From a virus, in the IMG/VR virus record IMGVR_UViG_3300009103_001934, positions 114,488-178,487 of that record: a DNA stretch of 64,000 bases; one strand, given 5' to 3'. Shown piece after piece: positions 7,720-26,403 of the stretch. The position numbers and the translations under genes are program-made. The notes beneath the pieces are model-generated. The model saw only the letters and a list, made by a program, of their open reading frames with translations. It was not told where the DNA came from and made no database searches. How positions within the stretch are numbered: the first letter of the stretch is position 1; every line of letters starts with the position of its first letter.

Positions 7720-7748
7720 TTGACGTAAAAGCGGATGTGTAGTACTAT
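7720..7748 (+). promoter_or_regulatory. Promoter for a leaderless gene
   Basis: TTGACG at 7720-7725 and TACTAT at 7743-7748 are 17 nt apart. The ATGATG start at 7755 begins exactly 6 nt after the -10 hexamer, so the A is expected to be +1. Confidence 0.75.
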
Positions 7749-7754
7749 ATAAAC

Positions 7755-7991
7755 ATGATGAACGAATTAGATCAACTCAAAGAAGACATTTGCATGAAGA
7801 GCTTCGGTCGCAGCCGAAGTCTCGCGCTAGCCGCAGGGCAGTGTGTTAAGTGTGGAACCTATGACCTCGACTTTCGCGATGAACCATCGCAACGTGAGTA
7901 CAAACTCACCGTGTGGTGTCAGTCGTGCCAAGACGATTTCTTCGGGCTGGATTCGGACGGTGAAATCGCATGGGAGGAGGATGAGGATTAA
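7755..7991 (+). CDS. Small zinc-ribbon protein
   Basis: This 78-residue protein starts with a doubled Met and has two CxxC knuckles, CVKCG (about 30-34) and WCQSCQ (about 54-59), forming a probable zinc ribbon. A conserved-looking SFGRSRSLALAAGQC stretch precedes the first knuckle, and an acidic tail (WEEDED) ends the protein. It probably binds a protein or nucleic acid. It has no leader and no Shine-Dalgarno. Its stop overlaps the next start (TAATG), implying coupled translation. Confidence 0.85.
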   Translation: MMNELDQLKEDICMKSFGRSRSLALAAGQCVKCGTYDLDFRDEPSQREYKLTVWCQSCQDDFFGLDSDGEIAWEEDED

Positions 7992-8503
7992 TGGATATCG
8001 CAAACACACTTAAGCGCGAGGTCTATCGCAACCTTCACTTCAGGAACGAGACCGTTTATTCTGTACGTAAGGAAGGCCTTGTAGAGGGGCATGCCCTGAT
8101 GGTCATCATGGACGGAACGACTAAGACCCCAATTAAGTTTGCGGTCGGCCCTAAGGGCAACCAGCGCGTACGTGATGAAGAGCGCAAGAACGTGCACGCT
8201 GTTATCCGCGGGCACATCAACAACGCCGTGTGGTATACAAGTGACATGGATGTGGATGCATTCGAAATGGGTCATGCTAAGGATGCCTGCGAGTACTTTA
8301 AAAAACAGTACATGATCGAGCGTGAGGGATATCGATGGCTTGAGGTTGTATATAATCCTTACAAGTACCGCACCTTCATGACTCGTGACACGGATCCTTT
8401 CAGATCGAATGAAGACGTCTATGAGCCTATCTTTACCGCTCGCACAGTCATCATCGGCGAGACGTGCTGGGCGCAAGTCCGGGCGGAGCACGAGATGAAT
8501 TAA
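7991..8503 (+). CDS. Hypothetical protein
   Basis: This 170-residue mixed alpha/beta protein has no recognised motif. Segments such as HALMVIMDGTTKTPIKFAVG and ARTVIIGETCWAQVRAEHEMN suggest a small compact beta-containing domain. It is translated from the same leaderless mRNA as the zinc-ribbon protein (1-nt stop/start overlap) and ends at a strong terminator. The reverse strand also holds a 167-codon open frame, but the operon context supports this strand. Confidence 0.75.
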   Translation: MDIANTLKREVYRNLHFRNETVYSVRKEGLVEGHALMVIMDGTTKTPIKFAVGPKGNQRVRDEERKNVHAVIRGHINNAVWYTSDMDVDAFEMGHAKDACEYFKKQYMIEREGYRWLEVVYNPYKYRTFMTRDTDPFRSNEDVYEPIFTARTVIIGETCWAQVRAEHEMN

Positions 8504-8519
8504 TATTTTTCCTCCATCA

Positions 8520-8556
8520 GGCGGGTCCGGGTTTTATGTGTTTGACCGGGCCCGCC
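8520..8556 (+). terminator. Terminator of the 7755-8503 operon
   Basis: GGCGGGTCCGG pairs with CCGGGCCCGCC (one wobble) and is followed by TACTTTTTT. Confidence 0.85.
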
Positions 8557-8565
8557 TACTTTTTT

Positions 8566-8603
8566 GCTTGACATTTCGGGACCGGTCCCGCGGCTTGTCA
8601 AGC
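8566..8603. terminator. GGGACCGGTCCC module 3, bidirectional hairpin
   Basis: GCTTGACA/TGTCAAGC arms flank GGGACCGGTCCC (8578-8589), with T-runs both sides. TTATCCACA, a perfect DnaA-box sequence, follows at 8609-8617. Confidence 0.8.
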
Positions 8604-8645
8604 TTTTTTTATCCACAACCTGTGAATTATTTTTTCATTTTTTTC

Positions 8646-8673
8646 TTGCCTTTTTCTGCTCAACCTGTATAAT
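8646..8673 (+). promoter_or_regulatory. Promoter for a leaderless gene
   Basis: TTGCCT at 8646-8651 and TATAAT at 8668-8673 are 16 nt apart; ATG follows exactly 6 nt after the -10. Confidence 0.75.
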
Positions 8674-8679
8674 GCTCGC

Positions 8680-8808
8680 ATGAAGATTAAAGCAAGAGTA
8701 AGCAAACAAGGATTTATGGGCAGCGCGTCCCGTGAACACAGAGTGAAGAAGGGCAAAGGCTCTTTCACTCGCAAACAAAAACACAAAAAAAGTATTGACA
8801 CAAACTAG
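8680..8808 (+). CDS. Small very basic protein (42 aa)
   Basis: The ORF encodes MKIKARVSKQGFMGSASREH followed by a Lys/Arg/His-rich tail (RVKKGKGSFTRKQKHKK). The strong charge suggests nucleic-acid binding. It starts 6 nt after a perfect TATAAT, so it would be leaderless. Its last codons contain the TTGACA -35 box of the next promoter, tying the two genes together. No family is recognised. Confidence 0.65.
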   Translation: MKIKARVSKQGFMGSASREHRVKKGKGSFTRKQKHKKSIDTN

Positions 8809-8823
8809 GATATAGGAGATAAT
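8795..8823 (+). promoter_or_regulatory. Promoter embedded in preceding gene
   Basis: TTGACA at 8795-8800 lies inside the previous coding sequence; GATAAT at 8818-8823 is 17 nt on. A triple ATG begins 4 nt downstream. Confidence 0.75.
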
Positions 8824-8827
8824 CATA

Positions 8828-9259
8828 ATGATGATGGACGATATAAAACTGACCTACATTCCAGACTCTCACGACTGGATTAAAGTATATTTGCAAGCAC
8901 CTAACGCAGAACTTGCCGAGGCGTGGTTTAATTCCTTTTGGAATCACAACGCTACAAGCCAAGACGAGCCAGAATGGATATTCAAAAACGAGTTGGCATT
9001 TTGTACCACTTGGGACAAGCTAACCAAGGCCATGAATGATATTTTTCTTTTCATCCTTCTTAATGATGATGAAGATGCTTTCAAAGGCGAGGAAGGCGGC
9101 GCGATGCCGTTTGCCAAGGAACTAGCCAAGGCCAAGATTGCAGAGATGAACAAAAAAGATTCATCCATGCGCTACGGTCGCCAAGGTCACGTTTACACAC
9201 TCGGCGATGTTTACACCAACGAGGAAAAGTCATTTTCTTCTGGAACGTGCGACGTTTAA
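8828..9259 (+). CDS. Hypothetical protein
   Basis: This 143-residue protein starts with three consecutive ATG codons directly after a promoter -10, so any of MMMDD may be used; near-leaderless initiation is expected. The middle is aromatic and acidic (EAWFNSFWNH, DIFLFILLNDDEDAF), and the C-terminus is Tyr/Gly-rich. No known domain is recognised. Confidence 0.75.
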   Translation: MMMDDIKLTYIPDSHDWIKVYLQAPNAELAEAWFNSFWNHNATSQDEPEWIFKNELAFCTTWDKLTKAMNDIFLFILLNDDEDAFKGEEGGAMPFAKELAKAKIAEMNKKDSSMRYGRQGHVYTLGDVYTNEEKSFSSGTCDV

Positions 9260-9261
9260 GC

Positions 9262-9290
9262 TTGACCTTTAACCCTCAAACCTTTATTAT
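9262..9290 (+). promoter_or_regulatory. Promoter for a leaderless gene
   Basis: TTGACC at 9262-9267 and TATTAT at 9285-9290 are 17 nt apart; the ATG at 9297 is exactly 6 nt after the -10. Confidence 0.75.
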
Positions 9291-9296
9291 ACTCTG

Positions 9297-10010
9297 ATGT
9301 TGAAATTCAAAGATGCAAACGGTAAACTCAAGAAGATGGCAAAGAAGCTTGGCGTTAAGCTTAAAACCTTCACTCTCCCTGCGGGCTATACTTGCGGCGG
9401 TGCAAAGGATTGCCTCGCGTATGCCGACAGAAAAACGGGCAAAGTGAGAGACGGCAAGGAAACACAATTCCGTTGTTTCATGGCATCGCTCGAAGCCACC
9501 TTTCCAAGTCTCCGCGCTATGGTGTGGGAGAATTACGAGCAGTTACAAGCGGCACTGAAAAACGGCGTTGATGCTTGCGCGGATCTGATCCACAACAGCT
9601 TGCCAAAGAAGTTTGACGTAATGCGCGTTCACGTTGGCGGCGATTACTTCAGCAGGGCGTATTTGCAAGCGTGGATTGAAGTTGCCAAGCGAAACCCTGA
9701 CAAGGTGTTTTACTCTTACAGCAAAAGCTTGCACCTGTTCAAGCAATTTGCGTTACCGGAAAACCTTGTGTTGACCGCTTCCCGTGGTGGCAAGTACGAT
9801 GATTTGATTGACCTCCACGCATGGAAAGAGGCGATTGTCGTATTCAGTGAAGAGGAAGCGGAAGAGCTTGACTTGGAAATTGACCACGACGATTCACACG
9901 CAGCGTTTGGCGCGGAGAATTTCGCGTTACTCATTCACGGCACACAGCCAGCAGGGAGCGCAGCAAGTGAAGCTTTGAAAGTCATAAAGAAAAAGGCAAG
10001 GGCTGCGTGA
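9297..10010 (+). CDS. Gp88-family phage protein
   Basis: This 237-residue protein resembles the mycobacteriophage Gp88 family. The features are TFTLPAGYTCGGAKDCLAYA (about 25-44) with paired Cys, a third Cys in QFRCFMA, a VHVGGDYFSRAYLQAWIEVA segment (about 112-131) and VFYSYSKSLHLF, followed by ASRGGKYDD. The conserved Cys residues could bind a metal, but no activity is established for the family. It is predicted to be leaderless, and its stop overlaps the start of a 19-residue membrane peptide. Confidence 0.8.
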   Translation: MLKFKDANGKLKKMAKKLGVKLKTFTLPAGYTCGGAKDCLAYADRKTGKVRDGKETQFRCFMASLEATFPSLRAMVWENYEQLQAALKNGVDACADLIHNSLPKKFDVMRVHVGGDYFSRAYLQAWIEVAKRNPDKVFYSYSKSLHLFKQFALPENLVLTASRGGKYDDLIDLHAWKEAIVVFSEEEAEELDLEIDHDDSHAAFGAENFALLIHGTQPAGSAASEALKVIKKKARAA

Positions 10011-10069
10011 TGGAATTTATTGTCCTTGTTGCCATCGGGTTGTATTTCGGCGCAAAGCTTAGTCGATAA
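10010..10069 (+). CDS. 19-residue membrane microprotein
   Basis: The ORF MEFIVLVAIGLYFGAKLSR starts on the stop codon of the Gp88-like gene (TGATG), the classic arrangement for translational coupling. It has one hydrophobic segment and a short basic tail. Its N-terminus resembles the candidate at 2574. It is small, so it may be fortuitous. Confidence 0.45.
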   Translation: MEFIVLVAIGLYFGAKLSR

Positions 10070-10083
10070 AAATGACATTTTTT

Positions 10084-10123
10084 GCTTGACAGCCGGCGGG
10101 ACCGGTCCCGCGAGATGTCAAGC
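10084..10123. terminator. GGGACCGGTCCC module 4, bidirectional hairpin
   Basis: GCTTGACA/TGTCAAGC arms flank GGGACCGGTCCC (10098-10109), with T-rich outer sides. Confidence 0.8.
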
Positions 10124-10145
10124 TTTTTCTTTGTTATTTTTTTAT

Positions 10146-10174
10146 TTGACACAAAGTCGGAAGTGGGGTATTAT
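10146..10174 (+). promoter_or_regulatory. sigma70-type promoter
   Basis: TTGACA at 10146-10151 and TATTAT at 10169-10174 are 17 nt apart. A leader of about 35 nt, containing GAACGAACT, separates it from the ATG at 10215. Confidence 0.75.
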
Positions 10175-10214
10175 ATAAACAGTGCGAACGAACTAACTAA
10201 AACTAAAAAAACTG

Positions 10215-10682
10215 ATGAACAACCTACATTCATATACTAACTACATCACTGGCACAGAACTTGAGAACGGAAAGATTCTCCTGTATGCTGGCAAAACACG
10301 CAACGGTATCGATGACCGTAAGAAAGGCAAAATGGCTTGCGGATTCATCGCTGGCGTTGGCCTAGATGGTCGTCTGTTTGACACCGTCCATTCTAACACT
10401 AACACCAAAAACGATAAGCTCACGGAGCAACGTCACATCAACACGATTCGTGCCGTGGCGCAATTACTCCCTGACGTTATCGTTGCTGGTAACACTTATG
10501 ACGATGGATTTTATGGGGGAATCATTTCGTCCATCAGTCCTAGCGTCTACGACAAAGTCGTAAGCTGGGTACAGGGTACGCGCACTATGACAGAAAAGCG
10601 CATGGTGGCGAACAAGCGAAAGCTGGCTCGAAAGCTCGCTCAAGTGAAGCGAGCTAGGCAAGCAAAGAAGGCTTTGGCTTAA
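10215..10682 (+). CDS. Hypothetical protein with basic tail
   Basis: This 155-residue protein has an N-terminal compact domain (ENGKILLYAGKTRNGIDDRK, then a CGFIAGVGLDGRLFDTV strand-like run) and a long Lys/Arg/Ala-rich C-terminal helix (MVANKRKLARKLAQVKRARQ). The basic helix could bind nucleic acid. No Shine-Dalgarno is evident. It is a single-gene unit ending at a large hairpin. No family is recognised. Confidence 0.75.
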   Translation: MNNLHSYTNYITGTELENGKILLYAGKTRNGIDDRKKGKMACGFIAGVGLDGRLFDTVHSNTNTKNDKLTEQRHINTIRAVAQLLPDVIVAGNTYDDGFYGGIISSISPSVYDKVVSWVQGTRTMTEKRMVANKRKLARKLAQVKRARQAKKALA

Positions 10683-10690
10683 CCCTAGTA

Positions 10691-10742
10691 GGGGGGAGAG
10701 AGTTTGGCGTGAATGCTTCGCCTCTTGAGTGGCTCTCTCCCC
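10691..10742 (+). terminator. Large branched hairpin terminator
   Basis: GGGGAGAGAG pairs with CTCTCTCCCC; the apical part holds a second GGCG/CGCC hairpin. TCTTGACTTTT follows, so the exit overlaps the next promoter. Confidence 0.7.
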
Positions 10743-10744
10743 TC

Positions 10745-10773
10745 TTGACTTTTCAACAGAAACCCATTATACT
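10745..10773 (+). promoter_or_regulatory. Promoter of endolysin gene
   Basis: TTGACT at 10745-10750 and TATACT at 10768-10773 are 17 nt apart. The ATG at 10783 is 9 nt downstream, leaving a leader of about 3 nt. Confidence 0.75.
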
Positions 10774-10782
10774 TTTATACTT

Positions 10783-11256
10783 ATGGAGAGAATACATATA
10801 ATTATTGGATTGATAATCTTCTTTATTATTAGCATAACCGCTTCGGGCGATGAAGTCTTAACAAGGGACGAGCGTATTGTTGCACTCACTATACTGGGAG
10901 AAGCCCGTGGTGAAGGTAAAAAAGGAATGTATGCTGTCGCCTGTGTAATTCAGAAACGCGCGTCAGAACGCAACCTCACGCCAGCAAAGGTATGCCACCA
11001 ACCTTATCAGTTCAGCATTTGGAACGCTGGAAAGGGTAAGATAAAAAAAGAAAGTGAGTTGTATTATTTGTGGAAATCTAAATCCATGATGTACGCCAGA
11101 GAGTTAGCGAGAACAGTTTGCAAAGGTAAATTGTTAGATCAAAAATTCACTGGTAACGCAAATCACTATTGCAGAAAAGAAATCAATAACTATTGGACAA
11201 AGAAAGGAACAATAACAAAGGTAATTGGAAATCATAAATTTTTCAAATTACGATAG
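10783..11256 (+). CDS. SleB-type cell wall hydrolase with signal/anchor
   Basis: This 157-residue protein has an N-terminal hydrophobic segment (about residues 4-20, IHIIIGLIIFFIISITA) that could be a signal peptide or signal-anchor-release sequence. It is followed by a SleB/CwlJ-type hydrolase domain: TILGEARGEGKKGMYAVACV with a likely catalytic Glu at about 40, then KRASERNLTPAKVC, QPYQFSIWN and a His-containing GNANHY. SleB enzymes cut the peptidoglycan glycan strand; here it would be the endolysin, exported by the host Sec route. The start at 10783 is chosen over an upstream in-frame codon because the promoter lies between them. No holin is recognised nearby. Confidence 0.85.
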   Translation: MERIHIIIGLIIFFIISITASGDEVLTRDERIVALTILGEARGEGKKGMYAVACVIQKRASERNLTPAKVCHQPYQFSIWNAGKGKIKKESELYYLWKSKSMMYARELARTVCKGKLLDQKFTGNANHYCRKEINNYWTKKGTITKVIGNHKFFKLR

Positions 11257-11286
11257 GCTTCAAATAATAAATCAGTGCAAATATGA

Positions 11287-11315
11287 CCCGTCCCGAATAA
11301 GGGGCGGGTTTTTTT
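11287..11315 (+). terminator. Endolysin terminator
   Basis: CCCGTCCC pairs with GGGGCGGG around GAATAA, followed by T7. Confidence 0.9.
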
Positions 11316-11320
11316 AGGGC

Positions 11321-11344
11321 AAAAAAAAGGCCCGCTTTCGCGGG
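11321..11344 (-). terminator. Terminator of the minus-strand pair
   Basis: Read on the minus strand, CCCGC-GAAA-GCGGG is followed by CC and T8, directly after the minus-strand gene at 11351-11557. Confidence 0.85.
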
Positions 11345-11350
11345 TTGTGT

Positions 11351-11557: not shown

Positions 11558-11608
11558 AATGATATTGATAGGGCGCGAATTCTTAGGCAGTCGCGCTCGC
11601 CCATGATG

Positions 11609-11818
11609 TTAGTCCTTCCAGACCATGTCCAGATATTCACCGTAAGTAGCAAGGTAATCCTGCCATTCGGTGTCCGTCATTAGCGGCCCATGGATTGCAA
11701 CCAGATTCGCCCAACGATCTTGGGTTTCCTGTTCGCGTGTCCACTCTTCATGCTCAAGCTGAGCTTCGATGTCTGCACTTATGGTCTCTTCTATGGTTGG
11801 CATCATGTCGTTCATCAT
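11609..11818 (-). CDS. Small acidic hypothetical protein
   Basis: This is a 69-residue acidic, Trp-rich helical protein (MMNDMMPTIEETISADIEAQ). The start chosen is the ATGATG at 11818, 7 nt downstream of a minus-strand -10 box, rather than the upstream ATG at 11839 inside the promoter. The MMND start resembles the leaderless genes at 7755 and 12012. No family is recognised. Confidence 0.7.
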   Translation of the reverse strand: MMNDMMPTIEETISADIEAQLEHEEWTREQETQDRWANLVAIHGPLMTDTEWQDYLATYGEYLDMVWKD

Positions 11819-11825
11819 TAGAAAG

Positions 11826-11854
11826 AATATAACACGCATCTAAGAAAAGCACAA
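11826..11854 (-). promoter_or_regulatory. Minus-strand promoter, near-leaderless
   Basis: On the minus strand TTGTGC and TATATT are separated by 17 nt; the ATGATG start lies 7 nt after the -10. Confidence 0.7.
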
Positions 11855-11976: not shown

Positions 11977-12005
11977 TTGACAATTACATCCTTTTGTAGT
12001 ATATT
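11977..12005 (+). promoter_or_regulatory. Promoter for a leaderless gene
   Basis: TTGACA at 11977-11982 and TATATT at 12000-12005 are 17 nt apart; ATGATG follows exactly 6 nt later. Confidence 0.8.
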
Positions 12006-12011
12006 ATTTAC

Positions 12012-12200
12012 ATGATGAACGATCCATATAGCCAGATAACCAGCGGAGACCGTGACAACCTGCGTGCGGAGTTTGACGAACAAATGGCGATAATTGACGG
12101 CGCGAATAACCCTGACATGATTTGGGTTCGTGGCACCCTGCCCTATGATGATGAGGGTGTACGGTGCGGGTGCGAAGACTACCCCTGTTGTGGGCATTAG
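12012..12200 (+). CDS. Small protein with Cys-rich C-terminus
   Basis: This 62-residue acidic protein begins MMNDPYSQ and ends in a cysteine cluster (CGCEDYPCCGH) that could bind a metal. It is predicted leaderless. The next GGGACCGGTCCC module follows within 35 nt. No family is recognised. Confidence 0.65.
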   Translation: MMNDPYSQITSGDRDNLRAEFDEQMAIIDGANNPDMIWVRGTLPYDDEGVRCGCEDYPCCGH

Positions 12201-12294: not shown

Positions 12295-12323
12295 TTGACT
12301 TTTTGGCATTTATGGGTTATATT
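12295..12323 (+). promoter_or_regulatory. Promoter for a leaderless gene
   Basis: TTGACT at 12295-12300 and TATATT at 12318-12323 are 17 nt apart; the ATG starts 5 nt after the -10. The TTGACTTTTTGNCATT block recurs at 14280 and 15379. Confidence 0.8.
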
Positions 12324-12328
12324 TAAGC

Positions 12329-12562
12329 ATGATTAAAACGAACATGAAAACTTACAACGTAGAGTTTACGACAGCATTCGCTGGCTCTCCGTTCGTCAAC
12401 ATCGTTCTTGAAGCCAAGGACGAAAAACAAGCTGAATGGGTTGCCCGTAACCTTTGCCGTTTCGGTTACATTAGCAACATCACAAAAACTGATGAAGTTG
12501 CTGCTTTTACCGAAGAAACTCACGCTTTTGCTTATGATGAAGATTATGAGATTTATTCATAG
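12329..12562 (+). CDS. Tiny duplicated-family protein, copy 1
   Basis: This 77-residue protein has a beta-beta-alpha-like core, YNVEFTTAF...FVNIVLEAKDEKQAEWVARN, that resembles the proteins at 14315 and 15454 (V-x-F, then an A-rich/R-rich helix). The three genes also share the same upstream promoter block, so gene and promoter were duplicated together. An acidic, aromatic C-terminal extension (YDEDYEIYS) is specific to this copy. Function is unknown. Confidence 0.7.
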   Translation: MIKTNMKTYNVEFTTAFAGSPFVNIVLEAKDEKQAEWVARNLCRFGYISNITKTDEVAAFTEETHAFAYDEDYEIYS

Positions 12563-12598
12563 GTGGGACTGCGGATGTCCCACCCAGTATGCTATACT
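12562..12598 (+). promoter_or_regulatory. Hairpin-linked extended -10 promoter, copy 1
   Basis: GGTGGGAC (12562-12569) and GTCCCACC (12577-12584) form an 8-bp palindrome; 8 nt later lies TATACT (12593-12598) with a TG extension. No -35 box is seen, so the palindrome occupies the -35 region. Confidence 0.75.
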
Positions 12599-12604
12599 AG
12601 ACGC

Positions 12605-13060
12605 ATGATAATTAAGAACGAGATGAAAGAAAAACTAAAACCACTATTTGACCTAGACGGAACCCTTATCCGCGAGGAGCGCGGCTCAGATCGCCTATTT
12701 GATTTCCTACGGCCTCACGCTATTCTTAATCTCACAGAACACGACCTCACTCCTCTCGGAGTGTTAGTCAGAGACTCAGGCAAAGAATTTGACATTCTTA
12801 CAGCACGCGGCCCAGAGAATGCGCAGTTTATCCGTATAGCTCTTGAAGCTCTCGGATTCAACGTCGGTCGAATCGTAACCGTAGGCGTAGACATTAACGA
12901 GCCAAAGGATTGGGCTAATGTTAGCAGCAAAAGAGTAGCGGCAAAGAAAATCAGAATTGCCAAATTCGTCCAAAGGAAATTGGTTGACAACGATGCTAGG
13001 AATCTGGTAGGATTAGGAGAGTTAGGAGAGCTAGTAGCTCAAGACCAAACAGAGTTTTAA
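12605..13060 (+). CDS. HAD-superfamily phosphatase
   Basis: This 151-residue protein has HAD motif I PLFDLDGTLI (Asp16 and Asp18), motif II in DILTARGPEN, a lysine-rich region (AAKKIRIAKF) and a LVDNDARN motif that can supply the acidic metal ligands. HAD phosphatases form a phospho-aspartate intermediate; phage versions act on nucleotides or nucleic-acid ends. The start at 12605 is used because the upstream in-frame codons translate the hairpin promoter. It is exactly 6 nt after the -10, so leaderless. Confidence 0.8.
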   Translation: MIIKNEMKEKLKPLFDLDGTLIREERGSDRLFDFLRPHAILNLTEHDLTPLGVLVRDSGKEFDILTARGPENAQFIRIALEALGFNVGRIVTVGVDINEPKDWANVSSKRVAAKKIRIAKFVQRKLVDNDARNLVGLGELGELVAQDQTEF

Positions 13061-13061: not shown

Positions 13062-13316
13062 ATGATGAATAAGATTATTACAATTAAAGCAAAAGCCAAC
13101 GCAAGCCGGCGCACTAAAAACCGCATTCGTGGATTTGGCCCACGTTTCATCGTAGAGAAGAAACATGACCTTAATGACATCATGGCCCTTATCGGCAAGC
13201 GTGATTCAGAGTCTTGGTTGCTGCGCGAAGTGGGCGGCCCAGACGGTGATCCGTGGTTTGGCTGGCTGCCAGCTAATGAATTTGAAATTGTTGAAACTGA
13301 AGGATTTTGGTCTTGA
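13062..13316 (+). CDS. Small basic hypothetical protein
   Basis: This 84-residue protein begins MMNK with a basic stretch (KAKANASRRTKNRIRGFGPR) and ends in an aromatic, Gly/Pro-rich part (GGPDGDPWFGWLPANEFEIV). The start is 1 nt after the HAD gene stop, so the two are co-transcribed. Its stop codon overlaps the TTGACA box of the next promoter. No family is recognised. Confidence 0.7.
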   Translation: MMNKIITIKAKANASRRTKNRIRGFGPRFIVEKKHDLNDIMALIGKRDSESWLLREVGGPDGDPWFGWLPANEFEIVETEGFWS

Positions 13317-13341
13317 CATTTAATCGGAAAACCCATATACT
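13313..13341 (+). promoter_or_regulatory. Promoter overlapping a stop codon
   Basis: TTGACA at 13313-13318 contains the TGA stop of the preceding gene; TATACT at 13336-13341 is 17 nt on. ATGATG follows 8 nt later. Confidence 0.8.
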
Positions 13342-13349
13342 ATAAACAG

Positions 13350-13574
13350 ATGATGAAGAAACACAACATACAAAACGCAAGCGTATTTGCCACAAAGCAA
13401 TTACGCGACAATCTTAACAAAGTGCTTACTCGCAAAGAGCGGCAACAACTTGACGAAAAAGATGCTAAAACAAAATGGTATCTTGAATTGATGATTGCTG
13501 CTTGTCTCGGTGCTGCTCTTGCCCTTGGCTTTGTAGTCGCTCACGGTATGCTCACAACTGACTGGACTTGGTAA
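13350..13574 (+). CDS. Single-pass membrane protein
   Basis: This 74-residue protein has a basic, helical N-terminal half (LNKVLTRKERQQLDEKDAK) and a C-terminal transmembrane segment (LMIAACLGAALALGFVVAHG). It is the first of three consecutive small membrane protein genes in one transcript. The layout would fit a holin-like or membrane-modifying set, but there is no direct evidence. Confidence 0.7.
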   Translation: MMKKHNIQNASVFATKQLRDNLNKVLTRKERQQLDEKDAKTKWYLELMIAACLGAALALGFVVAHGMLTTDWTW

Positions 13575-14015: not shown

Positions 14016-14052
14016 GGTAGGACTGCGGATGTCCCACCCTCTGTGCTATACT
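14016..14052 (+). promoter_or_regulatory. Hairpin-linked extended -10 promoter, copy 2
   Basis: GGTAGGAC (14016-14023)/GTCCCACC (14031-14038) is followed exactly 8 nt later by TATACT (14047-14052) with a TG extension. The ATG is 6 nt further on. Confidence 0.75.
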
Positions 14053-14058
14053 ATACGC

Positions 14059-14262
14059 ATGATGATTAAAGAAGATAAGAAACCAACATACACCCTCTGG
14101 AACGGTGTGCAACTCATCGCCACCTACCCACACACACGTGAGGGCATGAATGCAGCCATGCTACGTGCATCAGAGCTAGGCATAGGGGCCAAGCTATACT
14201 CATCACGTGATGACCTAGTGTGGAGCGCACGCATGGCAGATGACATGATGGATTGTGAATAA
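14059..14262 (+). CDS. Small hypothetical protein
   Basis: This 67-residue protein, MMIKEDKKPTYTLWNGVQLI, is mixed alpha/beta. The start at 14059 is 6 nt after the -10 (leaderless); the upstream in-frame ATG lies in the palindrome module and is rejected. Its last codons encode CE-stop within TGTGAATAA, so the DnaA-box-like nonamer of the next module overlaps the end of this gene. Confidence 0.7.
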   Translation: MMIKEDKKPTYTLWNGVQLIATYPHTREGMNAAMLRASELGIGAKLYSSRDDLVWSARMADDMMDCE

Positions 14263-14279: not shown

Positions 14280-14308
14280 TTGACTTTTTGACATTAATGA
14301 GCTATATT
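14280..14308 (+). promoter_or_regulatory. Promoter for a leaderless gene
   Basis: TTGACT at 14280-14285 and TATATT at 14303-14308 are 17 nt apart; ATG follows exactly 6 nt later. Confidence 0.8.
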
Positions 14309-14314
14309 ATACGT

Positions 14315-14491
14315 ATGTTAAACAAGATAGAAAGCATATTCACAGTAACATTCACCAACGACAGTACCGTGTTCATTAAGGCAAGGGATAGGGGACACGC
14401 GCGCCGCATCGTGGAGCGGAACGGTAGCACATGGACACGCGCTGATGAGAGCGTTGAAATGGTGATTAAAAAAATTGAAAGAAGTTGCTAG
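14315..14491 (+). CDS. Tiny duplicated-family protein, copy 2
   Basis: This 58-residue protein, MLNKIESIFTVTFTNDSTVF then IKARDRGHARRIVERN, is clearly paralogous to the 15454 product (shared NDSTVFI-A-R and HARRIVE) and more distantly to 12329. The start at 14315 is fixed by the promoter 6 nt before it. A larger minus-strand open frame crosses here but lacks any start signal. The predicted fold is two strands and a helix. Function is unknown. Confidence 0.75.
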   Translation: MLNKIESIFTVTFTNDSTVFIKARDRGHARRIVERNGSTWTRADESVEMVIKKIERSC

Positions 14492-14527
14492 GTAGGACAG
14501 CAGATGTCCCACCTCGTATGCTATACT
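14491..14527 (+). promoter_or_regulatory. Hairpin-linked extended -10 promoter, copy 3
   Basis: GGTAGGAC (14491-14498)/GTCCCACC (14506-14513), 8 nt, then TATACT (14522-14527) with TG extension. The hairpin overlaps the stop of the preceding gene. Confidence 0.75.
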
Positions 14528-14545
14528 AGACGCAGTTAAAAGATT

Positions 14546-14836
14546 ATGGAAAAGAACAAGATGAACGAAACGATGACAGTAGAACAAGAAGCCCAACTCC
14601 TCCTTAATCAGGATGTACGCGTGACATTCGCGCAAAGCCAATTTTGGAACTGCACAGGTCGTGTGCGTAACATCATGGCCGATGGTCGCACACTTGAGAT
14701 TGACCTTGATTGGGACGGCAAGACCGTTCTTCTCGATGTCACCTTCGTGGGTGAGATTCAAGAGCGGACACAGTTCGCCAAGACCGAGCAAAGCCTCGGC
14801 CCAATCGCTAACAGTGTTGTAAAGTCTACCCTTTAA
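14546..14836 (+). CDS. Small hypothetical protein
   Basis: This 96-residue protein, MEKNKMNETMTVEQEAQLLL, has a helical N-terminus and a beta-rich core (VRVTFAQSQFWNCTGRVRNI, TLEIDLDWDGKTVLLDVTFV) like a small barrel. The leader GCAGTTAAAAGATT before the ATG is shared with the gene at 15705. It appears to head an operon with 14838 and 15085. No family is recognised. Confidence 0.75.
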   Translation: MEKNKMNETMTVEQEAQLLLNQDVRVTFAQSQFWNCTGRVRNIMADGRTLEIDLDWDGKTVLLDVTFVGEIQERTQFAKTEQSLGPIANSVVKSTL

Positions 14837-15649: not shown

Positions 15650-15686
15650 GGTAGGACTACAGATGTCCCACCCTATGTGATATACT
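15650..15686 (+). promoter_or_regulatory. Hairpin-linked extended -10 promoter, copy 4
   Basis: GGTAGGAC (15650-15657)/GTCCCACC (15665-15672), 8 nt, then TATACT (15681-15686). Confidence 0.75.
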
Positions 15687-15704
15687 AGACGCAGTTAAAT
15701 GATT

Positions 15705-16130
15705 ATGAAAGAACAAAACACTATGAAAGCAAACAACCTAATCCTCGGAGCGGTTTACATCAACGCAACCACTGGCCAGCCTTGCCGCTTGGTCAACATC
15801 GTATCCTGCCAAGGTGTTTGGCTTGAGTCCTATGATGGACAAGGGTATGGTGAACTAGTCAGCTTCGATGATTGCCACTATGCAAGTCAGGATGAAGTGG
15901 AAGATTATCTTGAGGACTTGCGCGTTTACACCGCAAGCAACAAAGCACCATCTCACAAGTCACCAGTGAGCTATGATGAAGGATTAGACGAGGATGAAAT
16001 TGCAAGCTATGAAAGCAAGCATGACATCACACCGAACACTTCCTCGCGCGTTAAGAACTACGACACGTATTGGAACGTGCAAGGTTACTACGAGGACAGC
16101 TACGGCAACGACATCCGTTGCAGGGATTAA
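15705..16130 (+). CDS. Hypothetical acidic protein
   Basis: This 141-residue protein has an N-terminal barrel-like part (NLILGAVYINATTGQPCRLV) and an acidic, Tyr/Asn-rich C-terminal half (YDEGLDEDEIASYESKHD). The ATG at 15705 aligns with the start of 14546 behind the identical promoter; an ATG at 15699 is also in frame. It is the last gene of the early-type block before the strand switch. No family is recognised. Confidence 0.7.
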   Translation: MKEQNTMKANNLILGAVYINATTGQPCRLVNIVSCQGVWLESYDGQGYGELVSFDDCHYASQDEVEDYLEDLRVYTASNKAPSHKSPVSYDEGLDEDEIASYESKHDITPNTSSRVKNYDTYWNVQGYYEDSYGNDIRCRD

Positions 16131-17135: not shown

Positions 17136-17164
17136 TTGATTTCTTTGCAGAAAAAGTATATTAT
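17136..17164 (+). promoter_or_regulatory. Promoter of the sugar-modification operon
   Basis: TTGATT at 17136-17141 and TATTAT at 17159-17164 are 17 nt apart; the ATG at 17172 is 7 nt after the -10, so leaderless. Confidence 0.7.
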
Positions 17165-17171
17165 ATATTAC

Positions 17172-17888
17172 ATGAAATCTTTCATTTTTGCAACATCTTA
17201 CATAGACAGTGACGAAAAATATGAAAAAAGATACTTAAAATGGATTAATTACCACAAGACTCTTCCTTTCGCAGAAGATAAACAGATTTTCCTCATGGAC
17301 GATGGCTCACCCGAAGAGTATGTCTCTAGATTCGAAGCGAAAATAATCAAACCAGAAGAAATCAATACAAATTATAAAGTTCCCCAAGGAAAATTGTGGC
17401 TAGACAAAGTTAACGTCTACCATTTTGACCAAAGACTAGGCATTAACCCCAAAGACAACACCCCGGGTATTTATGGAAGCACCTTGGGGTGGTACAGAAG
17501 CGTTTTCGAAACAGTCAAAATCGCTCGTAAATTTCAATATGATAAAATTATTCATGTTGAATCCGACGCTTATTTAATTTCCAAACAAATATGTACTTTT
17601 ATTGACGCTTTAGACTCGGGATGGACAGCGTTATGGTGCCCTAAGTACTCTTTTCCGGAGACTTCTATACAAATTATTTGTAAAGATCAATTTGATAAAC
17701 TAGAAGAGCTAAGAAATGCGGATTTAAATCAATTTAAAAATCTTCAAGCAGAATGGAACCTTCCAATTAGTCAGGTAGCAAAGTCTTTTGAGGGAGATAG
17801 GTATGGAGAAATGACAAATAAACAATTACCGGGAATAGATTACTATTGTCAGTGTGGATTGGACACAATTTTAAAATACAAAGGCTAA
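17172..17888 (+). CDS. Putative glycosyltransferase
   Basis: This 238-residue protein looks like a GT-A-fold transferase: an N-terminal strand (SFIFATSYIDSD), the acidic LMDDGSPEEY, then IIHVESDAYLISKQ with an ExD motif where the metal would bind. It heads the operon that runs into rmlA (TAATG overlap). The specific family is not recognised, and donor and acceptor are unknown. The ATG at 17172, set by the promoter, is preferred to one 12 codons upstream. Confidence 0.65.
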   Translation: MKSFIFATSYIDSDEKYEKRYLKWINYHKTLPFAEDKQIFLMDDGSPEEYVSRFEAKIIKPEEINTNYKVPQGKLWLDKVNVYHFDQRLGINPKDNTPGIYGSTLGWYRSVFETVKIARKFQYDKIIHVESDAYLISKQICTFIDALDSGWTALWCPKYSFPETSIQIICKDQFDKLEELRNADLNQFKNLQAEWNLPISQVAKSFEGDRYGEMTNKQLPGIDYYCQCGLDTILKYKG

Positions 17889-21904: not shown

Positions 21905-21908
21905 TATT

Positions 21909-22433: not shown

Positions 22434-23404
22434 ATTTACTAATTACAGGTGGCGCGGGGTTCATAGGGACCAATTTTGTTAAGATGATGCTCAAAAAAAG
22501 GGCTGGTCAAAAATTAATGGTTGTTATGGATAGCTTAACCTACGCTTCGGACTACAAAAACATTAAAGAAGATATTTACGATCATCCCAAATTAAAATTT
22601 GCAAATGTTGATATAAGAGACTCTAGATATGTAAACGCTACGTTTGAAAAATATGGTATAACTCATGTTGTTCATTTTGCTGCAGAATCTCACGTCGATA
22701 ATTCTATCCTTGGCCCAAAAACGTTTATCGAAACAAATGTGCTAGGAACGCTTAACCTTTTAGAGGCGGCGAAGACATACCAAGTAGAAAGATTCCATCA
22801 CATTTCCACAGACGAAGTGTTCGGCCACTTGGGTGACAAAGGTAAGTTCTCAGAAAATACCCCTTATGCTCCTAGGAACCCATATTCTGCTTCTAAGGCG
22901 GCTTCTGATCATTTGGTTAGATCATACTACTATACCTATGAACTGCCCGTAACGATATCAAACTGCTCCAATAACTACGGTCCCTATCAGCATGATGAAA
23001 AGTTTATTCCAACAATCATCAATTCGATATTGAAAAGAAAAAAGATTCCCCTATATGGACAAGGTTTAAATGTAAGAGATTGGATTCATGCAGAAGATCA
23101 CTGTAATGCGCTGTTAACTATTTTAAAAAAGGGCAAAGTGGGAGAAACATATAATATTGGTGCTGACTGCGAAATGAGAAATCTTGATGTAGTTAACTTA
23201 ATATGCGAGATCTTAAAGGTAGAGCCTGACGACTGTATAGAATTTGTCTGTGATCGATTAGGGCATGATTTTAGATATGCAATAGATTCATCTAGAATCA
23301 GAAAAGAATTGAGATGGAAGCCTAAAATTTCATTCGAAAAAGGTATACTTAAAACCGTATCTTATTACAAAAGTAAGTATGATACTGAATTTAGAGACTT
23401 ATAG
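22430..23404 (+). CDS. rmlB: dTDP-glucose 4,6-dehydratase
   Basis: This 324-residue extended SDR enzyme has GGAGFIGTNF at the N-terminus, HFAAESHVDNSI, the catalytic STDEVFGHLG (Asp/Glu), YSASKAASDHLVRSYY with Y-x3-K, and NCSNNYGPYQ. It converts dTDP-glucose to dTDP-4-keto-6-deoxyglucose. Length and motifs are typical of RmlB. With RmlA and RmlD it gives most of the dTDP-rhamnose pathway; the RmlC epimerase is not in this window. Confidence 0.95.
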   Translation: MNLLITGGAGFIGTNFVKMMLKKRAGQKLMVVMDSLTYASDYKNIKEDIYDHPKLKFANVDIRDSRYVNATFEKYGITHVVHFAAESHVDNSILGPKTFIETNVLGTLNLLEAAKTYQVERFHHISTDEVFGHLGDKGKFSENTPYAPRNPYSASKAASDHLVRSYYYTYELPVTISNCSNNYGPYQHDEKFIPTIINSILKRKKIPLYGQGLNVRDWIHAEDHCNALLTILKKGKVGETYNIGADCEMRNLDVVNLICEILKVEPDDCIEFVCDRLGHDFRYAIDSSRIRKELRWKPKISFEKGILKTVSYYKSKYDTEFRDL

Positions 23405-23405
23405 T

Positions 23406-23415
23406 GTGTAATTAT
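23406..23415 (+). promoter_or_regulatory. GTGTAATT motif (candidate phage promoter)
   Basis: GTGTAATTAT lies just before the ATG of phoH at 23421. Confidence 0.5.
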
Positions 23416-23420
23416 AATTA

Positions 23421-24212
23421 ATGCCTACTAAGAAGACTAATTCTGATGGTAAGGTTAAGATCCGACGCGACCGAGAGTTTGCAGAACATCTAAACGAAAC
23501 TGAAAACAAATTTGTCCCAGATAATCCAATCAAAAGACAAATTAAAATTAACCAACTACCGTGGACTGATAAGCAAAAAGAGTTTTTCCGAATAGCGCTA
23601 GATTATCATACTAAGATAGTCTTTGTTAATGGACCAGCGGGTACATCTAAGACTTTGTTATCGGTCTATTGTGGATTACAGCTTTTAAATATGAAAGCTA
23701 TCTCAGATATTATGTATTTGAGATCCGCAGTAGAAAGTTCTGAATCTAAACTGGGTTTTCTCCCGGGGTCAGCAGACGATAAACTAAAATTTTATAACTT
23801 GCCATTTTTAGATAAATTAGACGAGCTACTAATAACTACCAAGCCCGAAAAGCTAGAAGAGGAAAAAAGAGTTTCCATGTTTCCAGTAAACTTCGCAAGA
23901 GGAATGAACTGGAAAGGTAAATGCATTATTTTAGATGAAGCGCAAAACTCTACCATGAAGGAGATTACGACCGTTCTTACTAGAATGGGTGAGGGGAGCA
24001 GATGCTTTGTATTGGCGGACCCTATGCAAACCGACTTGAGAGCAGACTATCAACAGGGAGCCTTCGAAAAGTTAGGGGGTATATTCTCCGATGAGGAAAG
24101 CATGAATATGGGGATTTATAATTTTAACTTTACTGAAGAAGATATTATGAGGTCTGAATTAGTTAAGTTTATCGTTCGAAAAATCAACCGAGAGGGAGAG
24201 AACCATGAGTGA
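23421..24212 (+). CDS. phoH: PhoH-like ATPase
   Basis: This 263-residue protein has Walker A GPAGTSKT (71-78), an RSAVESSESKLGFLPGSADDK segment typical of PhoH, Walker B CIILDEAQN (about 168-176) and VLADPMQTD. PhoH-like ATPases are very common in marine and freshwater phages; proposed roles include RNA metabolism and phosphate-stress functions, but these are not settled. The end overlaps clpP by 8 nt. Confidence 0.9.
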   Translation: MPTKKTNSDGKVKIRRDREFAEHLNETENKFVPDNPIKRQIKINQLPWTDKQKEFFRIALDYHTKIVFVNGPAGTSKTLLSVYCGLQLLNMKAISDIMYLRSAVESSESKLGFLPGSADDKLKFYNLPFLDKLDELLITTKPEKLEEEKRVSMFPVNFARGMNWKGKCIILDEAQNSTMKEITTVLTRMGEGSRCFVLADPMQTDLRADYQQGAFEKLGGIFSDEESMNMGIYNFNFTEEDIMRSELVKFIVRKINREGENHE

Positions 24213-24984
24213 AGAAGTAAAAAGAACTAAAAAAGAAATAGAAGCTGATTTGCTCTTAAAGCAAGCAGAGTTAGATCAGAAACTAGCCGAAATAGAAAAG
24301 ACCAAGGCTGAGACAGAAAAAATGCAAGCTGAAGCCGGAAAGGCTCACCTCGAATATGAGAAGGCCCACAATAACAGGAGCAAAGAGCTATATACAGATG
24401 AAGAAAATTATTTATATAGATTTTCTAAAGACGTTTCTCATCACTCAGTTCAGGCCTGTATGAGTAAGCTTACAGAATGGCACAGAAAGGATCCAAAGTG
24501 CGCAATAGAAATTATCTTCTCATCTCCCGGAGGAAGTATTATTGATGGATTTGAATTATTCGATTTCATACAAGAGCTTAGGCAAAAGGGGCACAAAATA
24601 ACTACGGGCTCCTTGGGCATGGCCGCTTCCATGGCAGGCATCTTATTGCAAGCGGGAGACGTAAGGTGGATCGGGCATCAAGCATGGATGATGATCCATA
24701 GGGCTGCATTCGGAGCGATTGGTAAAACATATGAGGTGGAAGATGAAGTAAGGTTGGTAAAAAGAATTGAAGGAAGAATTTTAGATATCTTTACTTCTAG
24801 ATCTAACCTAACTAAAATTAAAATAAAAAGAAATTGGGACAGAAAAGACTGGTGGATAGACGCTGACGAAGCTGTATCTTTAGGGTTAGTCGACGAAATT
24901 CGAGCGATGATGCCTGAGCACCAAAATAATAAAAAAATAACAAAGAAAGTAAAAGCAAATGTACGGAAGACTAAAAGATCCTGA
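24205..24984 (+). CDS. clpP: ClpP-like serine protease
   Basis: This 259-residue protein starts with a coiled coil (about 1-60, Lys/Glu/Ala-rich) followed by a ClpP fold: FSSPGGSIIDGFELFD, the nucleophile Ser142 in GMAASMAG, and His165 in MMIHRAAFG, with a later Asp expected. ClpP-like phage proteases often mature the prohead, but this window also has a separate protease/scaffold gene (39110), so this one may instead act on host or phage proteins. Both catalytic residues are present. Confidence 0.85.
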   Translation: MSEEVKRTKKEIEADLLLKQAELDQKLAEIEKTKAETEKMQAEAGKAHLEYEKAHNNRSKELYTDEENYLYRFSKDVSHHSVQACMSKLTEWHRKDPKCAIEIIFSSPGGSIIDGFELFDFIQELRQKGHKITTGSLGMAASMAGILLQAGDVRWIGHQAWMMIHRAAFGAIGKTYEVEDEVRLVKRIEGRILDIFTSRSNLTKIKIKRNWDRKDWWIDADEAVSLGLVDEIRAMMPEHQNNKKITKKVKANVRKTKRS

Positions 24985-25117
24985 AAAATACGGAGCGTGG
25001 ACTAGAGCAATTAAGAGTTGGCTTAAAAAAGCTTGGAAAAAAATTAGACATTATTGCTGTAGCGTGGGATTATGTACTATAGATAAGTGCAAATGCTCAT
25101 GTCATGAGAGTAAGTAG
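24959..25117 (+). CDS. Small basic Cys-cluster protein (52 aa)
   Basis: The ORF overlaps the end of clpP by 26 nt in another frame and the next gene by 14 nt. It encodes a basic, Trp-containing helix (AIKSWLKKAWKKIRHY) and a C-terminal cluster of six Cys and one His (CCSVGLCTIDKCKCSCH) suited to zinc binding. No family is recognised; the tight packing supports a real gene. Confidence 0.5.
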   Translation: MYGRLKDPEKYGAWTRAIKSWLKKAWKKIRHYCCSVGLCTIDKCKCSCHESK

Positions 25118-25814
25118 CAAACATAAGTTTATATTCCTCAGTAATCCTAAGTGCGGATCTACAAGTATAGATTACGCTTTACAAGATTATTCTACCTTCG
25201 GGCACGAACACTGTAGGCCTGACGAAAACTATGTCCCTCCAGAAGACGGAGGATTTGATAATAGAGCAATACGACATATTAACGCTTACCAACTAAAAGT
25301 TTACTTTGATCACATGAAATCTACGGACGACAGTGATTTTGATTGGGAGTGGGATAATTATTATAAATTTACCACAATCCGAAATCCTTGGGAAAAAATG
25401 GTGTCCTATTATTTTCTCTCCAAGCCCGATAAAGATAACAACTTCTTTATGGAAGTGGATAAGTGGAATAAAGACACAGCATTTAGCAACGGATTTAATA
25501 GTTGGCTAAAGTGGGTTATATCCCTCCACGGACTCCCTTCTTACGAATACTTTTGTTTAAATCACGAAACGAAAGAAGAAATGATTGATGAAGTCTTTGA
25601 CGTGGCCGAAATAAATGGAGGACTAATTACTAAACTAAATGAATTAGGATTGGATATTGAAGAAATTCCCAAAAGGCAACCTATGAGCTTAGAGGTAACT
25701 GCTTCGAACATAACGGAAGACTATTTTTCTTTGTATAATACAGAATCAAAAGAAATTATAGAAAAAGTGTATGCCTCAGATATAGATAAGTTCGGCTATA
25801 CTTTTGGGGCTTAA
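25104..25814 (+). CDS. Sulfotransferase-like protein
   Basis: This 236-residue protein carries the 5'-phosphosulfate loop FLSNPKCGSTSI (about 11-22) and the 3'-phosphate motif TTIRNPWEKMVSYY (about 89-102) of PAPS-dependent sulfotransferases (sulfotransferase family 2-like). It would transfer sulfate to a glycan or other hydroxyl acceptor, fitting the adjacent sugar cassette. A His-rich segment (FGHEHCRP) may be near the active site. Its stop overlaps the stop of a convergent small gene. Confidence 0.8.
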   Translation: MRVSSKHKFIFLSNPKCGSTSIDYALQDYSTFGHEHCRPDENYVPPEDGGFDNRAIRHINAYQLKVYFDHMKSTDDSDFDWEWDNYYKFTTIRNPWEKMVSYYFLSKPDKDNNFFMEVDKWNKDTAFSNGFNSWLKWVISLHGLPSYEYFCLNHETKEEMIDEVFDVAEINGGLITKLNELGLDIEEIPKRQPMSLEVTASNITEDYFSLYNTESKEIIEKVYASDIDKFGYTFGA

Positions 25815-25975
25815 TTTAGCCGTCTTTCTATTAGAACTTTAAGTTCATGCGCTATATTATTAACCCTTATTGAATAAGCTCTGATCTCATCATCTGTATC
25901 TTTACAGTAATGTAGAGATAACTTCATAATCTCCTCAGCCTTTTCTGCAGCTTCCTTTTTAGCCAAGTTATCCAT
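25811..25975 (-). CDS. Small helical protein on minus strand (54 aa)
   Basis: This minus-strand ORF encodes MDNLAKKEAAEKAEEIMKLS then DDEIRAYSIRVNNIAHELKV, a single long charged helix. Its stop overlaps that of the sulfotransferase gene. It fills an otherwise empty interval, which supports it. No family is recognised. Confidence 0.55.
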   Translation of the reverse strand: MDNLAKKEAAEKAEEIMKLSLHYCKDTDDEIRAYSIRVNNIAHELKVLIERRLN

Positions 25976-26026
25976 ATCTTATTTTAGCCTAAAGTTAGAA
26001 AAAATTAATAAAATATTTCAAATATG

Positions 26027-26035
26027 TGGTATAAT
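26027..26035 (+). promoter_or_regulatory. Extended -10 promoter
   Basis: TGGTATAAT is a perfect extended -10 (TATAAT at 26030-26035). The ATG at 26044 is 8 nt downstream, so nearly leaderless. Confidence 0.6.
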
Positions 26036-26043
26036 AAGTAGAT

Positions 26044-26403
26044 ATGTTAAAAATATATTGTCAAAAATGCGGGGGCTTAAATGCTTATGTCTCAGAAAAG
26101 CCAAAATTCTGCCAAAAATGTGGTAATACTTTCGGCTCAATAGGCGCACCAAAAAAACTTGAAAAACAGGCGCGAGCTTTTGCTGAAGATGAAGATTTAG
26201 AAATACATCATATCCCCGATATTGATGGATTGTTGGTAGACATAGATGTAGCCGGACCCAGTAGTAGCACAATCGGTAATATTGCCGGAACGAATAAAGA
26301 AGGATTAAAAATAGAGCGGAGAGAGTTATCTCCGGAAGAAGCCAATATGGACCCCGTGGCTGAGTTAAAAAGAGAAGGGTCAACACTAAGACAAAATGAA
26401 TAA
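26044..26403 (+). CDS. Zinc-ribbon protein preceding sigma factor
   Basis: This 119-residue protein begins MLKIYCQKCGGLNAYVSEKP with two CxxC knuckles (CQKC at about 6-9 and 23-26), a zinc ribbon, followed by an acidic, disordered-looking tail. It overlaps the sigma-factor gene by 8 nt, so the two are co-expressed. A role in late transcription, as a co-activator, is possible but unproven. Confidence 0.8.
   Translation: MLKIYCQKCGGLNAYVSEKPKFCQKCGNTFGSIGAPKKLEKQARAFAEDEDLEIHHIPDIDGLLVDIDVAGPSSSTIGNIAGTNKEGLKIERRELSPEEANMDPVAELKREGSTLRQNE

Follow-up and report, generated by a model that had tools for sequence, protein, structure and literature searches.

How is a gene translated when its start codon stands exactly where its promoter should begin the RNA? 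The question is raised by a 64,000-nucleotide (nt) stretch of viral DNA, hereafter the window, which covers bases 114,488–178,487 of the 178,487-base IMG/VR record IMGVR_UViG_3300009103_001934. Here a series of genes carries the -10 hexamer of a promoter only a few nucleotides ahead of the ATG. Under the sigma70 rule a -10 element occupies positions -12 to -7, which puts the A of an ATG 6 nt downstream at +1. Leaderless initiation is a known but uncommon mode of translation. An ATG placed in this way would probably have at most a very short leader before it and no ribosome-binding site, and we conclude that the window very probably contains leaderless or near-leaderless gene cassettes, with leaders of 0–3 nt. 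The placement of the promoter at the start codon is well supported and recurs in related phages.

The original prediction listed 14 such starts. On re-measurement all of its distances from -10 to ATG proved correct: exactly 6 nt at 7755, 8680, 9297, 12012, 12605, 14059 and 14315, and 4 to 9 nt at the other seven. It also described most of these starts as lacking a Shine-Dalgarno sequence and several as opening with tandem ATG codons, and this holds as well, with no Shine-Dalgarno match of at least 4 nt at 13 of the 14 and a tandem ATG at six. The exception is 8828, which has AGGAG 9 nt before its ATG; this motif overlaps the gene's own promoter, so it could serve only a transcript from upstream. 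A -35 match or a dyad element is present at 12 of the 14 starts, and nine (7755, 8828, 9297, 10783, 12012, 12329, 13350, 14315 and 17172) have TTGACN or TTGATT with a 17-nt spacer. In order along the window, the starts are:

7720–7991, plus strand: phrog_19722 gene of 78 amino acids; TTGACG-17-TACTAT, 6 nt, ATGATG at 7755
8646–8808, plus strand: 42-residue basic protein (end deduced from the 42-residue reading); TTGCCT-16-TATAAT, 6 nt, ATG at 8680
8795–9259, plus strand: gene of 143 amino acids; TTGACA-17-GATAAT, 4 nt, ATGATGATG at 8828; AGGAG overlaps the spacer and -10
9262–10010, plus strand: GP88 family protein (PF17338); TTGACC-17-TATTAT, 6 nt, ATG at 9297
10745–11256, plus strand: cell wall hydrolase (PF07486); TTGACT-17-TATACT, 9 nt, ATG at 10783
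11609–11831, minus strand: gene at 11818; weak -35 (TTGTGC), TATATT, 7 nt, ATGATG
11977–12200, plus strand: gene at 12012; TTGACA-17-TATATT, 6 nt, ATGATG
12295–12562, plus strand: gene at 12329; TTGACT-17-TATATT, 5 nt, ATG
12562–13060, plus strand: gene at 12605; dyad promoter GGTGGGACTGCGGATGTCCCACC followed by TATACT, no -35, 6 nt, ATG
13313–13574, plus strand: gene at 13350; TTGACA-17-TATACT, 8 nt, ATGATG
14016–14262, plus strand: gene at 14059; dyad promoter, TATACT, no -35, 6 nt, ATGATG
14280–14491, plus strand: gene at 14315; TTGACT-17-TATATT, 6 nt, ATG
17136–17888, plus strand: gene at 17172; TTGATT-17-TATTAT, 7 nt, ATG
26030–26403, plus strand: gene at 26044, the weakest member; poor -35, TATAAT, 8 nt, ATG

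Two further genes, absent from the earlier list, have the same layout:

3759–4084, plus strand: gene at 3797; TTGACC-17-TATACT, 9 nt, ATG
4071–5082, plus strand: gene at 4108; TTGACA-17-TACAAT, 8 nt, ATG

To set the spacing against chance, both strands of the whole record were scanned for a TTG-type -35, a 17-nt spacer and a TANNNT-type -10, scoring at least 10 of 12. The 178-kb record holds 39 such strong sigma70-type sites. Nine have an ATG at exactly 6 nt, where 60 dinucleotide-preserving shuffles averaged 0.1 and never exceeded 1, and there are 19 ATG placements at 5–9 nt (shuffle mean 0.67, maximum 4). The start codon at offset 6 is ATG in all nine, and none of the sites has GTG, TTG or CTG there. 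Changing the spacer removes most of the signal: ATG falls at 6 nt in 1 of 25 sites with 16- or 18-nt spacers and in 3 of 42 with spacers of 14, 15, 19 or 20 nt. When the -35 was ignored, the rise at 6 nt was modest (8 of 202 starts) and lay within a general rise of TATAAT-like hexamers near starts; the sharp peak thus depends on demanding a -35. The gene set behind the counts of called starts is 204 calls from a simple coding-score script that takes ATG where possible, so these starts are approximate. Among the promoter-adjacent starts, a Shine-Dalgarno match of at least 5 nt was seen for 1 of the 23 of the record and for 3 of the 88 of its relatives. Tandem ATGs occur at 4 of the 23 automatically found sites, a set that includes one spurious site inside the GP88 gene (9336), whereas the remaining 186 called starts include four (p 0.006); our guess is that the tandem ATG could provide a spare start should +1 slip by 3 nt. 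Outside this region, leaderless-type starts were also seen at L009:15046 (minus strand), L010:3772, L011:9858 and 14189, and L014:6519 and 8045.

A count of these distances in relatives had been proposed with the original prediction, and it gave a sharp mode at 6 nt, not a broad spread. Using the GP88-family gene at 9297 as query, we fetched 73 loci and took ten as close relatives (L017–L021 and L023–L027), leaving out L015, L016, L022 and L033 as near-duplicates and L028–L032 as outside the group (50–53% identity in GP88). The ten contain 91 distinct strong sites; ATG lies at 6 nt in 40 of them and at 5–9 nt in 69, and shuffles gave means of 0.12 (maximum 1) and 0.82. The codon at offset 6 is ATG in 40 cases and GTG in one (sites scoring at least 10). 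L018 and L024 each hold ten exact matches to TTGACA-N17-TATATT-N6-ATG, confined to about 11 kb of contigs of 54 and 43 kb, respectively, with none elsewhere, and the reversed pattern, as a control, gave no match. Three relatives fetched after the rule had been fixed, and read in part (30,000 of 79,502, 30,000 of 116,086 and 20,000 of 89,345 bases), yielded 40 sites, 12 at 6 nt and 23 at 5–9 nt, against shuffle means of 0.07 (maximum 1) and 0.43. Pooled over the record and all 13 relatives, 61 of 170 distinct sites have ATG at 6 nt, every other offset from 0 to 40 has between 0 and 19, and the first ATG lies at 5–9 nt in 107. A set of 78 loci fetched by terminase alone, covering 3–6 kb around that gene, showed no such peak (1 of 25 sites scoring at least 10 at 6 nt, 4 at 5 nt), as would be expected if the cassettes lie away from structural genes.

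Several lines of evidence indicate that the adjacent ATG is the start codon. It opens a frame of at least 40 amino acids in 111 of 126 cases; for ATGs in general (12,491) the share is 28.7%. There are nineteen families with at least two members, and in 64 of 99 orthologue pairs the in-register alignment begins no more than 12 residues from either start; these open-frame and orthologue counts include L016 and the spurious site at 9336. Over codons 2–20 of 26 in-register pairs, substitutions number 128, 81 and 225 at positions 1, 2 and 3, and this third-position excess, together with the orthologous N-termini, supports translation from the adjacent ATG. The family of the 7755 gene begins MMNELDQLKED, MMNELEQFKEE, MMNELEQYKED and MLNEIEDMKE in four phages; its orthologues in L016, L020, L021, L024 and L025 lie 5–8 nt from the -10, and further relatives occur in L303–L305. 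The orthologue of the 14315 gene in L019 also has 6 nt, and the 8680 protein resembles, by eye, the products of leaderless genes in L021 and L024. That the ATG might be a mere transcription-start signal and no start codon is ruled out by the open frames, the orthologue N-termini and the codon-position bias.

The same register is found with a second type of promoter, in which a 23-bp dyad, GGTAGGACTRCRGATGTCCCACC and close variants, replaces the -35 and is followed by TATACT. The dyad, possibly an operator or activator site, occurs in the window at 12562, 14016, 14491 and 15650 and is common to several relatives. Counted by hand with a strict pattern and with copies from the same genome removed, dyad-type promoters number 22 by genome and gene. 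In 15 the ATG begins exactly 6 nt after the -10; in six AGTTA takes its place, which implies a leader, and the last has ATGs at 1 and 7 nt. Both types are found among the orthologues of the 12329 gene. In L021 and L311 the gene has TTGACA-17-TATACT and a 5-nt gap, whereas in L313 and L314 it follows the dyad promoter, whose -10 lies 6 nt from an in-frame ATG, and the product reads MKNMKNK ahead of the common TYNVEF. The promoter type was thus swapped and the gap moved from 5 to 6 nt, keeping the start in the +1 register to within 1 nt.

The GP88 gene supplies a natural contrast: most of its copies in the close group are leaderless, whereas in distant phages it has a leader and a Shine-Dalgarno-like site. 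Of 54 distant loci (L034–L087), 45 were counted after duplicates and fragments had been dropped by hand. A -10-like box lies 15–50 nt from the start in 36 of them (median 34) and within 9 nt in none, and GGA, AGG or GAG occurs in the ribosome-binding window of 44. In L028–L032 no adjacent -10 was seen by eye, and L028–L031 have a GGAGG-type site. Exceptions within the close group are L019, where GP88 has no adjacent -10, and L026, where the -10 is weak. Across the 54 distant loci, ATG lies at 6 nt in 38 of 272 strong sites. Leaderless-type genes thus extend beyond the close group, although part of the 38 may be short reading frames inside leaders. The contrast allows the question of how a lineage shifts between modes of initiation to be put to sequence data.

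The original prediction went further and proposed a deliberate scheme of two translation modes, leaderless early and Shine-Dalgarno late, citing AAGGAG sites at capsid genes. The sites are clearest at three genes:

39096–39101, plus strand: AAGGAG of the 499-residue structural-region gene at 39110
40623–40628, plus strand: AAGGAG of the gene at 40637
41235–41240, plus strand: AAGGAG of the 382-residue gene at 41252

The capsid identity of these genes is less firm. The 40637 protein has a sub-threshold match to phage cement proteins, and 39110 and 41252 have no match in family searches, nor 41252 any among solved structures. Over the gene set as a whole, a Shine-Dalgarno match of at least 4 nt precedes 58 of 202 starts (29%) against 25% of internal ATGs, which is near background. 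At this threshold the structural region (12 of 27) and the rest of the record (46 of 175) differ with p 0.07. At 5 nt or more the region is enriched, with 9 of 27 against 14 of 175 (p 0.0008), so that a Shine-Dalgarno-led minority does exist among virion-region genes. Most structural-region starts (18 of 27) nevertheless have no such match in the 4–19 nt before them, and in most called genes both signals, a promoter-adjacent ATG and a strong Shine-Dalgarno match, are missing. An AT-rich element like TAATTAAATTAATTAAA stands directly before several starts without a Shine-Dalgarno (L014:7801, 9236 and 11048; window 1134).

What, then, does the spacing mean? That TATAAT-like hexamers fall by accident near AT-rich starts is a negligible prospect. 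The broad rise of such hexamers when no -35 is required would fit it, and an individual start that lacks a -35, as 26044 does, might yet be accidental, but for the -35-bearing set chance is ruled out by the shuffles, the offset profile, the conservation in orthologues and the relatives fetched later. Leaders of about 2–6 nt, made by a polymerase starting 1–6 nt upstream of the ATG, are an improbable alternative as a general description: the 170 sites also show an excess of ATGs at offsets 7, 8 and 9, with 12, 15 and 19 placements, yet the mode stands sharply at 6 nt, with the A at the expected +1, in two promoter types. A temporal programme with a switch of the translation apparatus, similar to that of Thermus phage phiYS40 with the classes reversed, seems doubtful to us. 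The density of leaderless genes among small genes near DUF932 and GP88 and the Shine-Dalgarno enrichment in the structural region speak for it; against it stand the structural-region starts that mostly lack a match of at least 5 nt, the majority of other genes with neither signal, the leaderless-type starts found elsewhere, and the lack of any IF3 (C-domain), S1 or S21 family member in the record, IF2 not having been searched. Early expression of the leaderless class would be one part of such a programme. The possibility that the phage simply conforms to the gene design of a host that itself uses many leaderless genes we rate at about even. Leaderless genes are widespread in bacteria and exceed 20% in Actinobacteria and Deinococcus-Thermus, according to Zheng et al. 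(2011, PMC3160421). The promoters are host-type sigma70 in appearance, and overall Shine-Dalgarno use in the phage is near background. The distant phages, on the other hand, are leadered at GP88 with Shine-Dalgarno-like sites, and the leaderless layout is therefore no trait of all hosts of the wider group.

A number of observations weigh against the leaderless reading itself. Not all 14 starts need be exactly leaderless, since spacings of 8–9 nt would yield short leaders and a leader of 2–3 nt is equally likely there; GP88 of L021 and L022, 13 nt from its -10, would also have a short leader. Transcripts from farther upstream could cover some of these genes, and 8828, with its AGGAG, could be read from one. 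Among the 170 pooled sites, 31 have no ATG within 40 nt or have it at offset 0, and 35 of the 99 orthologue pairs do not align in register at the start. The relative of the 12329 gene in L315 has no -10 ahead of its ATG and neither promoter type; it comes, by eye, after an apparent tRNA end. The first 40 nt of the leaderless genes are not less structured than other gene starts of this phage (p 0.16), although they differ from internal stretches, and the relatives' first 40 nt are less structured than this phage's other gene starts (p 0.002). As no IF3, S1 or S21 of the phage's own was found, any shift towards leaderless initiation would have to come from the host or from some other factor. Real leaders, finally, follow some strong promoters:

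10146–10682, plus strand: leadered gene; TTGACA-17-TATTAT, start 40 nt after the -10
14491–14836, plus strand: leadered gene; dyad promoter, AGTTAAAAGATT replaces the +1 ATG, start at 14546
15650–16130, plus strand: leadered gene; dyad promoter, AGTTAA replaces the +1 ATG, first ATG at 15699

Parts of this design are already known. The cI mRNA of phage lambda is translated from a 5'-terminal AUG; it is a single regulator gene, in contrast to the repeated cassette design described here. PMC3160421 cites lambda as an early example of the leaderless kind, and cI appears in a reference of PMC12340547. Leaderless transcripts are also spared by kasugamycin (PMC5230787). In PMC3160421, bacterial leaderless genes are marked by a TANNNT box some 12 bp ahead of the start. 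The phage starts agree with these TA-led genes in the distance of the box (counted from its first T), as in the 61 pooled promoters with a 6-nt gap and the 14 listed starts at 4–9 nt, and they share the AUG start and the absence of a Shine-Dalgarno; they differ in belonging to a phage group and in their near-consensus -35 boxes, two promoter types and arrays. PMC12340547 describes open reading frames of Deinococcus-Thermus that lie a few bp from a -10 and give leaderless mRNAs, enhanced by a -35 set 17 bp upstream, while here 12 of the 14 listed starts bear a -35 match or dyad.

The closest known phage case is phiYS40, in which most middle and late transcripts are leaderless and the expression of IF2 and IF3 changes, as summarised in a review (PMC3594737). 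Like the present phage it is large and has many leaderless mRNAs, but here the leaderless class consists of small genes in repeated cassettes, in uncultured phages and known from sequence. We used phiYS40 as a positive control for the scan, reading 100 of its 152 kb for sites scoring at least 10, with small site numbers. Its first 50 kb gave 7 sites with five ATG placements at 5–9 nt, and the span from 50 to 100 kb gave 12 sites with none at 5–9 nt and three at 19 nt, a result that fits the leaderless middle and late transcripts described in that review. In 50 kb each of three control phages, ATG at 5–9 nt was found in none of 8 sites (T4), none of 4 (Microcystis phage MaeS) and one of 6 (P-SSM2).

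Taken with these precedents, our preferred explanation is that a host-type sigma70 promoter (TTGACN-17-TATAWT, or the dyad variant) would start RNA at the A of the ATG or about 3 nt from it at most, and that the host ribosome would begin on the 5'-terminal AUG without a Shine-Dalgarno. With promoter and start fused at a fixed spacing, a small gene could move, insert or be re-promoted as a unit. We raise, tentatively, a stronger version, in which a phage lineage fused promoter and start into a transferable module by which small accessory genes spread as leaderless cassettes with either a -35/-10 or a dyad/-10 promoter, the +1 register being kept through promoter exchange and a DnaA-box-like site often lying just upstream of the -35. 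Such a module would allow proteins to be made during host takeover with no Shine-Dalgarno and perhaps even in the absence of free 30S subunits. In the literature covered, earlier leaderless phage mRNAs are single cases (lambda) or come from one phage (phiYS40), while here one arrangement is repeated dozens of times across roughly twelve related contigs; a partial literature search found no description of leaderless-cassette arrays in uncultured phages, to which we attach little weight. In practical terms, the N-termini and transcription starts of uncultured phages become predictable nearly to the nucleotide, and gene finders that rely on the Shine-Dalgarno would tend to misplace such starts.

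The promoters carry additional elements. A DnaA-box-like element, AAAGTTATTCACAA or its reverse complement, lies just 5' of the -35 at many of them. Copies in the window include:

6392 and 8609, plus strand: DnaA-box-like element
11968, 12277, 14262, 15293 and 15361, minus strand: DnaA-box-like element

It accompanies 3 of 39 strong sites in the record (0.08 expected) and 14 of 65 in five relatives (0.45 expected); it is seen in L018, L021, L024 and L316, and further copies lie at 46128 (minus strand) and, three of them, in L011. A third box, with GGA or AGA in positions 8–10 of the spacer, marks strong promoters of the window, L009–L014, L025 and L016, with 16 of 39 sites in the record, 7 of 11 in L025 and 5 of 12 in L016 against a background of 3%. 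Five other relatives have it in 0 of 65 sites, and in 42 of these 65 the last six bases of the spacer include TGTG, TGAG or TGCG. The box also precedes leadered genes and the transfer-messenger RNA (tmRNA). We rejected the GGA in the spacer of the G000 promoters as a ribosome-binding site, given its position upstream of the -10 and its presence in leadered promoters and before the tmRNA gene. A palindrome around GGGACCGGTCCC is repeated near window positions 6349, 7650, 8566, 10084, 11906, 12219, 13943 and 15299, with TTGACA arms and, in some copies, TGTCAA; some copies are followed by a run of T, making them partly terminator-like. Dyads of the type GAGACTNAGTCTC, possible operators, recur between genes near 3348, 5651, 11937, 12246, 13970 and 15330.

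The phage collection holds no near DNA match to the window. The terminase query matches at least 598 IMG/VR stretches, and its identity to cultured-phage terminases is at most 26.5% among the matches listed (12 of 47); by organism name, none of the 47 cultured-phage records matching it groups with Thermus. At E ≤ 1e-30 the terminase matched 1 of 245 genomes (33% identity) in the class of a SAR202 metagenome-assembled genome (MAG), 1 of 384 (30% identity) in the phylum of an Omnitrophota MAG and 0 of 369 in the class of a gammaproteobacterial MAG, and a GP88 scan of genome contigs returned six MAG contigs at 41–54% identity. These searches of genomes and MAG contigs did not pinpoint the host. 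A marine origin is likely. The manA RNA motif, typical of marine phages and bacteria, lies at window 6071–6249 (RF01745, 77.9 bits, gathering threshold 55.2) within an apparently noncoding stretch of about 500 nt, and several relatives have sample numbers that we take to be marine. A phage-encoded tmRNA is found at L012:10910–11327, with the tag EADEILAKFGYVEEEELQLAA, and L013 carries tRNA-Arg, tRNA-Ile and tRNA-Leu. At its far end, from about 61150 to 64000, the window consists of a long degenerate repeat region, often with a period of 42 nt, that continues past the end of the record.

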